Positions 27,910-30,798 of a stretch of 38,514 bases of DNA are shown here, piece after piece. This stretch comes from Lysobacterales bacterium (lineage in GTDB: Bacteria > Pseudomonadota > Gammaproteobacteria > Xanthomonadales > SZUA-36). The stretch covers positions 1 to 38,514 of the forward strand of contig JABDPF010000021.1 in the NCBI GenBank assembly GCA_013042915.1, given 5' to 3'. The notes beneath the pieces are model-generated. The model was given only the letters and a program-made list of their open reading frames with translations, was not told where the DNA came from and did not search any database. The stretch's first letter is position 1, and every line of letters starts with the position of its first letter. A program made the position numbers and the translations under genes.

Positions 27910-30288
27910 TCAGCCGGAGCCGGCTTTCTTCTTGCTGGCTTTTTTCCGGGCGGTTTTCTTTTTCGAAGTTTTTTTCTTCGAGGTCTTTTTCTTGCTGGTC
28001 TTTTTCTTTGCCGTTTTCTTCTTGGAGGCCTTTTTCTTGCTTCGCTTGTCGGGCGCCGCGTCCAGCAATTCCTGGCATTCTTCCAGGGTCATGGAATCGG
28101 GCTCGCGGTCCTTCGGCATGCGGGCGTTCTTGTTGCCGTCGGTGATGAACGGCCCCCACCGACCCTTGACGATCTGCACGTCGCTATCGTCCCAGGTGCG
28201 CAGAATGCGATCGAGATCCGCCTGCTTTTTCGCGGCAATCAGCTCCAGCGCTGTGTCCAGGGTGACCGTGTGCGGATCGTCGTCTTTCAACGAGACGAAT
28301 TTGCTGCCGTAACGAATGTAAGGGCCGAATCGTCCGATGCCGGCGGCGACGGTTTCGCCCTCCTCGGTCTCCCCGAGGGTGCGCGGCAGCTTGAACAATT
28401 CGAGCGCCTCTTCCAGCGTGATGGTCTCCAGGCGCTGTCCGTTGCGCAAACCCGCAAACTTGGGCTTTTCATCGTCCTCGACGCTACCGATCTGCGCGTG
28501 CGGGCCGAAGCGACCCAGCCGCACCGAAACTTCCTTGCCCGTTTTCGGATCGTTTCCGAGTACGCGGGTCGCGCGCGCTTCCTGGCGGCTAACGCTTTCT
28601 TCCTTGTCCTCGATCCGCTTGGCAAACGGCTTCCAGAACTGCATCAGCGGTGGAATCCAGTGCATCTCGCCGCGCGAGATTTCGTCCAGCGTATCCTCCA
28701 TTCGGGCGGTGAACTCGTAATCCACGTAAGGCTCGAAGTGCTTCTCGAGGAAACTCGCCACCACCCGGCCGGTTTCCGTGGGAAAGAAGCGCCGGCGGTC
28801 GAGCTCGACGTAATTTCGCCGCACCAGGGTCTGGATAATGCTGGCATAGGTGGAGGGCCGGCCGATGCCGTAGTCTTCAAGCGCCTTGACCAGGCTGGCC
28901 TCGGAGAAGCGGGGCGGCGGCTCGGTGAAATGCTGCTCGGCGCGGATCTCCTCGACACTCACCACGTCGCCTTCGCGCATGTCGGGCAAACGGTTTTCTT
29001 TTTCTTCCTTGCCGGCCGGCCGTGATTCCTCGTAAGCGCGCAGGAAGCCGGGAAAGGCAATCACCGAACCGTTGGAACGGAACGACGCGCCCTCGCCGCA
29101 GGCGAATTCAACCGCCACCATATCCACCAGGGCGGGCACCATCTGCGAAGCCACCGCGCGTTTCCAGATGAGTTCGTAGAGGCGGGCCTGGTCGCCCTGC
29201 AGGCGTTTTTTCAAGGTATCAGGCGCATCGCAGGCCGAGGTGGGGCGAATGGCCTCGTGCGCCTCCTGGGCGTTCTTCGACTTGGTCTTGTAGAAATTGG
29301 GTTTTTCGGGAACGAATTCGTCGCCGAAACGACCCTTGATGCAGCCACGGATGTCGGACAACGCATCCGCCGACAGGTGCACCGAGTCGGTTCGCATGTA
29401 GGTGATGAAACCCGCCTCGTAAAGACCCTGGGCCGTTCGCATCGTTTTCTGCGCCGAGAAGCGAAGTTTACGAGCGGCGTCCTGCTGCAGGGTCGAGGTA
29501 ATGAACGGAGGCGCGGGCCGGCGCTTGCGCTGGCTGCGCTTGACCTCGCCGACCTTCAGCTTGCCGCCCGCGTCGTCAAGCAGGCGCCGGCGAACTTCCT
29601 GCGCCTGTTTCTCGTTGTTGATGTCGAATTGCTTCAGCCGCTCGTTACCCAAACGCACCAGGCGGGAATCGAAACCCTGCTCTTTGTGCTTCAGATCGGC
29701 CTCGATGGTCCAGTATTCCTGCGCGTCGAAGGCCTCGATTTCGCGTTCGCGCTCGACCAGCATGCGCAACGCAGGGCTCTGCACACGGCCTGCGGACAGT
29801 CCGGTCTTGATCTTTTTCCACAGCAGCGGCGACAGGTTGAAACCCACCAGGTGGTCCAGGGCGCGCCTCGCCTGCTGAGCGTTGACGAGGTCCATCGAGA
29901 GCTCCCGCGGATGATCAACGGCTTCCCGAATGGCTCTCTTCGTGATCTCGGAAAATGCGATCCGGTAGAACGGAATTTTTTCGGCCAGGCCTTTCTCGCG
30001 CAGGATTTCATAAATGTGCCAGGAAATGGCCTCGCCCTCGCGGTCGAGGTCTGTCGCGAGATACACCGCCTCGGCTTTCTTCGCCGCGGCCACGATCGCG
30101 CGCACGTGCCGTTCGCTGCCCTCGTTCAGCTCATAAATCATGGCAAAGTCGTTTTCAGGATCGACCGCGCCGTCTTTGGACGGCAGGTCCCGCACATGGC
30201 CATAGGAGGCCAGCACCTTGAAGTCGGGCCCCAGGTAGCGATTGATGGTGGTCGCCTTGGCCGGCGATTCTACGATGAGCAGTTTGAT
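27910..30288 (-). CDS. topA: DNA topoisomerase I, apparent ATC start codon
   Basis: TopA relaxes negative supercoils. Domains: TOPRIM with E7 (LLIVESPAK) and D80/D82 (ATDLDREGE), then the type IA core with active-site Y297 (ITYMRTDS). C-terminal Crpt-type repeats follow (GRFGPHAQIG, GRFGPYIRYG, GRWGPFITDG) without zinc ribbons, then a Lys-rich tail of KKKTS repeats. The frame opens after TAA 30301-30303 and contains no ATG, GTG or TTG before the conserved TOPRIM strand. The codon before KLLIVESPAK is ATC (30286-30288), preceded by AGAGGG with a 6-nt gap. I take ATC as the start, giving 792 residues. GTG 30216 would delete the catalytic Glu. A base error is possible. It lies 33 bp after smg. 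Confidence 0.93.
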   Translation of the reverse strand: MKLLIVESPAKATTINRYLGPDFKVLASYGHVRDLPSKDGAVDPENDFAMIYELNEGSERHVRAIVAAAKKAEAVYLATDLDREGEAISWHIYEILREKGLAEKIPFYRIAFSEITKRAIREAVDHPRELSMDLVNAQQARRALDHLVGFNLSPLLWKKIKTGLSAGRVQSPALRMLVEREREIEAFDAQEYWTIEADLKHKEQGFDSRLVRLGNERLKQFDINNEKQAQEVRRRLLDDAGGKLKVGEVKRSQRKRRPAPPFITSTLQQDAARKLRFSAQKTMRTAQGLYEAGFITYMRTDSVHLSADALSDIRGCIKGRFGDEFVPEKPNFYKTKSKNAQEAHEAIRPTSACDAPDTLKKRLQGDQARLYELIWKRAVASQMVPALVDMVAVEFACGEGASFRSNGSVIAFPGFLRAYEESRPAGKEEKENRLPDMREGDVVSVEEIRAEQHFTEPPPRFSEASLVKALEDYGIGRPSTYASIIQTLVRRNYVELDRRRFFPTETGRVVASFLEKHFEPYVDYEFTARMEDTLDEISRGEMHWIPPLMQFWKPFAKRIEDKEESVSRQEARATRVLGNDPKTGKEVSVRLGRFGPHAQIGSVEDDEKPKFAGLRNGQRLETITLEEALELFKLPRTLGETEEGETVAAGIGRFGPYIRYGSKFVSLKDDDPHTVTLDTALELIAAKKQADLDRILRTWDDSDVQIVKGRWGPFITDGNKNARMPKDREPDSMTLEECQELLDAAPDKRSKKKASKKKTAKKKTSKKKTSKKKTSKKKTARKKASKKKAGSG
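27922..28045 (-). repeat. Degenerate 15-bp tandem repeat coding the TopA Lys-rich tail
   Basis: The 3' end of topA is a pyrimidine-rich (plus strand) low-complexity run. It encodes repeated five-residue units of the form KKKTS/KKKTA, ending AGSG. The period is 15 bp with synonymous changes. Such tails give non-specific DNA binding. Copy number may vary between strains by slippage. Confidence 0.7.
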
Positions 30289-30321
30289 AACCGTCCCTCT
30301 TTAGGTTCTTATCGCTTTTTA

Positions 30322-30798
30322 TTAATGGCGGTAGTCCTGCTCGCTGTCAAACATCAGGTCTTCCATCCAGGCGAAATTGGCCTCCTGGCCCGGTTGGTTG
30401 AACAGCACCATCAACACGACCCACTTCACGTCTTCGAGGTCGATCTCGTGAGATTCCAATGCCATCAGGCGGTCCAGCACCAGTTCGCGGCGTTGCGCGT
30501 CGAGCACGCCACAATTGGACAGGTACATCAGGAAATCGCGGCAGCCGGTATCCAGCCGCACAATCTCGTTTCCTGCGAAGACCCTAACCGGCTCGTCCGT
30601 GCGCATGTTGAGCTCGGGCTGGAATCGCTGTTCGGCGAGTCCGTCGAGCCATTTGAAGGCTTTTTCGATTTCCCCGTTGGTAAAGCCGGCTTCGTGCAGG
30701 TTCTGTTCCAGGGAGTCGCGGTCGGGTTGTGTCTCGGGTTCTTCGTAGAAATAGTTCTCGAACAGGTACATGAGGACGTCGAGTACATTTTCTTTCAT
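30322..30798 (-). CDS. smg: Smg/DUF494 family protein
   Basis: The 158-residue acidic protein begins MKENVLDVLMYLFENYF and continues with AGFTNGEIEKAFKWLDGL, RVFAGNEIVRLDTGCRDFLMYL, LDAQRRELVLDRLMAL and EDVKWVVLMVLFNQPG. These are diagnostic of the Smg (DUF494) family found between dprA and topA in beta- and gammaproteobacteria. The molecular function is unknown. ATG 30798 overlaps the dprA stop by one base (TAATG) and has AGAGGT upstream. Confidence 0.95.
   Translation of the reverse strand: MKENVLDVLMYLFENYFYEEPETQPDRDSLEQNLHEAGFTNGEIEKAFKWLDGLAEQRFQPELNMRTDEPVRVFAGNEIVRLDTGCRDFLMYLSNCGVLDAQRRELVLDRLMALESHEIDLEDVKWVVLMVLFNQPGQEANFAWMEDLMFDSEQDYRH

Follow-up and report, generated by a model that had tools for sequence, protein, structure and literature searches.

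A conserved AUC, AUA or AUU codon at the predicted start of topA in one clade of the family SZUA-36

Few bacterial genes are known in which a near-cognate start codon has been retained. At AUC, AUA and AUU (collectively AUH, or ATH in DNA) the initiator tRNA reads the codon with a third-base mismatch, and the Shine–Dalgarno (SD) sequence holds the 30S subunit in place. The accessible portions of two papers describe infC as starting at AUU in Escherichia coli and at AUA in Staphylococcus aureus, with help from the SD sequence and feedback by IF3 (PMC9410913, PMC13009471). In the accessible part of PMC9410913 the AUU-start genes of E. coli are counted as two, infC and pcnB, and a title cited there describes expression of pcnB, which encodes poly(A) polymerase, as limited by its inefficient start codon. 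Conserved non-canonical starts with an extended SD sequence are described for S. aureus ccpN (AUA) and cvfC1 (AUU) in the available text of PMC13009471, where AUU and AUA reporters yielded ~10% of the AUG level in poor medium and ccpN up to 30% in rich medium.

Here we analyse the start of topA in a window of 38,514 nucleotides (contig JABDPF010000021.1) from a Lysobacterales bacterium, and in the genomes of its family. Like infC, topA of one clade within the family appears to have an evolutionarily conserved near-cognate AUH start; the product of infC, however, discriminates against the start codon of its own gene, forming a closed feedback loop, whereas topA would be at most a downstream target. 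With pcnB it shares a position outside the initiation machinery, but pcnB of this family carries ATH in genomes with either type of topA start, whereas the AUH codon of topA is confined to one clade. The conserved non-canonical starts of ccpN and cvfC1 are comparable, although these are other genes in a distant host and their starts were mapped by ribosome profiling, that of topA by sequence comparison alone. The near-cognate starts of infC and pcnB were already known and that of topA would be a new addition; we found no conserved AUH start of topA described in the open-access literature, subscription journals being mostly outside this coverage.

Start region of topA in the window

A profile search identified the product of the window gene as a bacterial TopA (TIGR01051 topA_bact, 761.9 bits against a cut-off of 456.4). 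Its domains are TOPRIM (PF01751), Topoisom_bac (PF01131) and C-terminal repeats (PF13368), and it has a lysine-rich C-terminal tail (Table 1). The original prediction held that the topA frame runs from an in-frame TAA to the TOPRIM motif without any ATG, GTG or TTG, and this was confirmed on the minus strand from 30303 to 30268, the stretch that ends at the TOPRIM Glu. The codons following ATC read AAA CTG CTC ATC GTA GAA; the Glu encoded by the last of these is invariant in a 12-row alignment, and we take it to be the catalytic Glu. The AGAGGG sequence lies, as claimed, six nucleotides from ATC, with ACGGTT as the spacer (30294–30289, minus strand). The best anti-SD duplex of this leader reaches −7.8 kcal/mol, its best 9-base stretch extending 3' of AGAGGG. 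The upstream smg-like gene ends 33 nt from the topA start on the same strand, and the same upstream gene end was found at 13 of the 14 clade loci (at the other, in G003, our script gave no upstream ORF).

Table 1. Features of the topA start region and neighbouring gene in the window
Feature	Coordinates	Strand	Basis
topA (DNA topoisomerase I), 792 codons from ATC	27910..30288	−	TIGR01051, PF01131, PF01751, PF13368
ATC, inferred start codon (fMet-Lys-Leu-Leu-Ile-Val-Glu)	30286..30288	−	AUH in all 14 genomes of the clade
Shine–Dalgarno AGAGGG, 6 nt 5' of ATC	30295..30300	−	Sequence and anti-SD pairing
In-frame TAA upstream of ATC	30301..30303	−	Sequence
GAA, TOPRIM Glu, codon 7	30268..30270	−	Alignment to LVIVESPAK in E. 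coli TopA (4rul_A)
GTG, first in-frame canonical start codon, codon 25	30214..30216	−	Rejected as start; excludes TOPRIM Glu
smg-like gene (DUF494), next upstream	30322..30798	−	NF002897, 188.5 bits, slightly below cut-off of 191

An ORF list restricted to ATG, GTG and TTG puts the start of the window topA at GTG 30216. Such a start leaves out the TOPRIM Glu, as claimed. When the protein is begun there, the Pfam Toprim score is 40.0 bits, compared with 63.8 from the ATC, and the match to the profile sets in at position 26 instead of 2. A second type IA topoisomerase that might spare the cell a dead TopA was considered and ruled out, since the window genome (G000, a draft assembly of 2,685,552 bases in 105 contigs, 96% complete) holds a single PF01131 match.

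A conserved AUH codon of single origin

The family set comprised 39 genomes of 14 genera, 38 of them evaluable (the G062 match is cut short by a contig end and has no N-terminus). AUH stands at the topA start codon in 14 of the 38, as ATC in 10, ATA in two and ATT in two. Initiation at ATC, as predicted for the window, is supported by this comparison, since the codon is never ATG, GTG or TTG within the group (0/14). The genomes concerned (G000, G002, G003, G004, G005, G011, G012, G014, G015, G016, G021, G022, G026 and G030) fall into seven genera (g1, g3, g4, g5, g6, g12 and g13). In the remaining 24, topA has an ATG two codons upstream of the AUH position, and 16 of these relatives open the gene with ATG GCN AAA AAY CTN. 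A tree was built from 34 family and five outside TopA N-terminal domains, four g7 sequences having been dropped by a length filter. The AUH rows form one clade in it (support 97/96), which recurs in 96% of bootstrap trees.

Thirteen of the 14 AUH genomes are devoid of canonical codons from the upstream in-frame stop to the TOPRIM motif, the exception being G002, in which a GTG stands 26 codons ahead of the motif and codon 4 is TTG. In G012 and G015 the upstream stop is followed by just one sense codon before ATC. Canonical codons in frame are first met at codon 4, 24, 25, 26, 35 or 50, depending on the AUH genome. Values of pN/pS (0.026 for codons 2–11, 0.15 for codons 2–24 and 0.12 for codons 45–200) show strong constraint on codons 2–11 of topA at the protein level.

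In all 14 AUH genomes a GAGG (13) or AAGG (one, G015) ends 7–9 nt 5' of the codon, at 8 nt in 11 of them; most of the leader, unlike this core, varies in length and sequence. The SD of the AUH group shows a core GAGG or AAGG at proper spacing; the S. aureus cases have an extended SD. The best pairing of the leader with the anti-SD in the 16S rRNA tail averages −6.4 kcal/mol over the 14 AUH leaders (range −5.8 to −7.9) and −2.5 kcal/mol over the 24 ATG relatives (Mann–Whitney p 1.8e-6, uncorrected for kinship). One clade represents one evolutionary event, so the association of a strong SD with AUH counts as a single contrast and not as 14. Among the ATG-type loci, L172 pairs at −6.4 kcal/mol, equal to the AUH group, and L013, L015 and L021 at −4.9 to −5.2. 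For folding of the leader, the mean ensemble energy from −30 to +30 is −9.7 for the AUH group (14) and −11.4 for the ATG type (24). As a separate observation, eight of the 24 ATG-type members (L018, L019, L022, L023, L027, L029, L053 and L056) show no anti-SD pairing at topA, and because of this topA may be translated there without an SD.

Outside the clade, a canonical codon was found in every control topA that could be parsed. All 24 other evaluable family members have one ahead of the TOPRIM motif, as do all 78 parsed loci (of 80) in a wide set from named genomes, which includes two family contigs, L061 and L090, both of the ATG type. At order level, 20 loci were taken from 24 genomes and 19 parsed, all with a canonical codon ahead of the motif (18 ATG, one GTG); L088 of the wide set and L178 of the order set are probably one record, a slight overlap between these controls. 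A class-level search of 369 genomes gave a match in 355. Start codons were read in 20 loci among the matches listed, 18 of which were picked for an alignment with the window protein that starts at residue 1 or 2; each of the 20 carries an ATG three or five codons ahead of the motif.

infC, pcnB and other genes of the same genomes

The expected start of infC is ATC in all 23 family loci that could be parsed, from 31 examined (L141–L170 and L176; L151 is that of the window genome), and 11 of the 23 sit in AUH-topA genomes. No canonical codon occurs in the open frame ahead of the conserved motif in 22 of them; in the infC of G034 a GTG is also present far upstream. An IF3_N match was obtained in 12 of the 14 AUH clade genomes, that of G021 being partial, and in neither G014 (77% complete) nor G030 (76%). 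G011 shows a second, weaker IF3_N match (G011:C74:3648-3842, 72.8 bits against 110.9 for the main infC), which could reflect either another copy of the gene or contaminating sequence.

For pcnB, 30 genomes were examined (L263–L292; in the window genome G000:C60 near 10202) and G030 was dropped at a contig end. Of the 29 evaluable genomes, 28 have ATH as the homologous codon (ATC 14, ATT 13, ATA one), at a fixed position 39 codons before VGGxVRD and in AUH-topA and ATG-topA genomes alike, comparable with the AUU start of pcnB in E. coli. Canonical codons are absent upstream of the conserved region in 20 of the 29; G036 has an ATG one codon upstream of the ATH position. The leaders of pcnB also differ: the AGGA- or GGGA-like SD of most ATG-topA relatives is missing in eight of 10 evaluable AUH-topA genomes, and in seven of these eight (L263, L264, L268, L269, L270, L271 and L272) it is replaced by GCGTA, ending 7–8 nt before the ATH codon.

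A crude coding scan covered 649,148 bases of the window genome, namely the window together with up to 20 kb from the beginning of contigs C1–C40 (~24% of 2,685,552), with 445 predicted genes. It returned 14 rows with topA second; the top row (L237:4324) is just 15 codons after its first canonical start, and it and the rest were judged by eye to be noise. topA ranked first in a smaller scan (370,816 bases, 257 genes). The scan of ~24% of the genome, a weak control, gave no sign of general AUH start use; infC scored −0.2 in it and contig C60, which carries pcnB, lay outside the sample, and further AUH genes may exist in this genome. As regards other topoisomerase genes, an ATG lies close to the N-terminus in both PF00521 genes (gyrA/parC type) and in one PF00204 gene; the second PF00204 ORF, which is gyrB-like, reaches its first canonical codon, an ATG, at index 82 of the open frame.

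Alternative explanations and a possible role for IF3

The window comes from a draft assembly in 105 contigs, and a misreading of ATG as ATC had been raised as the simple alternative to an ATC start. The chance of this is negligible and we regard it as excluded: the 14 ATC, ATA or ATT codons come from separate assemblies, thirteen family genomes besides the window genome carry such a codon and none carries ATG, and a single error cannot yield three third bases across seven genera. Hardly more credible is programmed frameshifting, by which ribosomes would begin in another frame and shift into that of topA. Out-of-frame GTG or TTG codons do occur near the site in some relatives (for example GTG at −14 in G022, G030 and G021), but the window has no out-of-frame ORF that spans the site and has an upstream ATG, GTG or TTG, the same holds for G026, G004, G003, G012 and G002, and no such frame is common to all 14. 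A little less improbable, but still very unlikely, is a start at some other codon, either GTG 30216 downstream or an unusual one upstream, with ATH as an ordinary isoleucine codon. A gene caller limited to ATG, GTG and TTG indeed picks the downstream GTG, G002 has an in-frame upstream GTG, and an isoleucine could be conserved at this position given some unrecognised upstream initiation. However, a downstream GTG start drops the TOPRIM Glu, and the position of such a codon shifts from genome to genome; the stop one codon 5' of ATC in G012 and G015, the very low pN/pS over codons 2–11 and an SD spacing that suits the ATH codon all argue against a start elsewhere.

Comparison of the sequences establishes where the codon lies, that it has stayed AUH without becoming AUG in any of the genomes, that the SD stands at a nearly constant distance from it, that no other usable start is present and that the trait arose once. 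We consider it very likely that topA of this clade starts at a near-cognate AUC, AUA or AUU, which initiator tRNA would decode with the help of the SD. In the mechanism that we propose, the tRNA would pair with AUC, AUA or AUU with its third base mismatched while the SD anchors the 30S subunit. With such a start topA would belong with infC, pcnB, ccpN and cvfC1 among the genes that have retained a near-cognate start codon. Whether this start regulates anything is a distinct question, since an AUH codon could be genuine and yet have no regulatory role, having arisen once by chance, been compensated by a stronger SD and persisted. This explanation is compatible with the proposed start site and competes just with regulation; it gains from the single origin and from an SD that looks compensatory in 14 of 14 genomes. 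Against it, ATG is one base away and has been taken up by none of the 14, even though the third base has varied between C, A and T, a pattern that suggests selection against AUG at this codon; few independent changes are involved. As one origin amounts to one event, a harmless leftover accompanied by a compensating SD must be taken seriously as an account of function, though not of the start site, and we would put its likelihood as appreciable but short of even.

Initiation at the AUH codon is probably inefficient, which would keep TopA low. The translation rate of topA is probably low and set by its start codon, given that AUU and AUA reporters in S. aureus gave a fraction of the AUG yield. 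Since non-AUG codons are rejected by IF3, a high ratio of IF3 to ribosomes would in addition be expected to lower the output of TopA, just as it does for infC. Control of topA by IF3 is plausible, with indirect support from the codon class that topA shares with infC and pcnB in these genomes. The further proposal that topA of the clade is a target of start-codon discrimination by IF3, so that the amount of IF3 available per ribosome would determine the level of TopA and hence DNA supercoiling, is a tentative one, which we hold to be possible rather than probable. If it were true, infC, pcnB and topA could make up a set of AUH-start genes under one initiation factor, a suggestion we advance with the same reserve. 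Cold would be a weak candidate for a setting in which IF3 lowers TopA: according to the accessible portions of PMC6511846, the ratio of initiation factors to ribosomes in E. coli rises ~3-fold in the cold, but the IF3 bound to 30S subunits stays constant.

Genes of this kind are easily mis-annotated as truncated, because a caller confined to ATG, GTG and TTG shifts the start and loses the TOPRIM Glu. A core DNA topoisomerase with AUC, AUA or AUU at its start across seven genera would add a central gene to the near-cognate set, and the AUH start of topA offers a cheap test of whether the fidelity of initiation controls DNA supercoiling.
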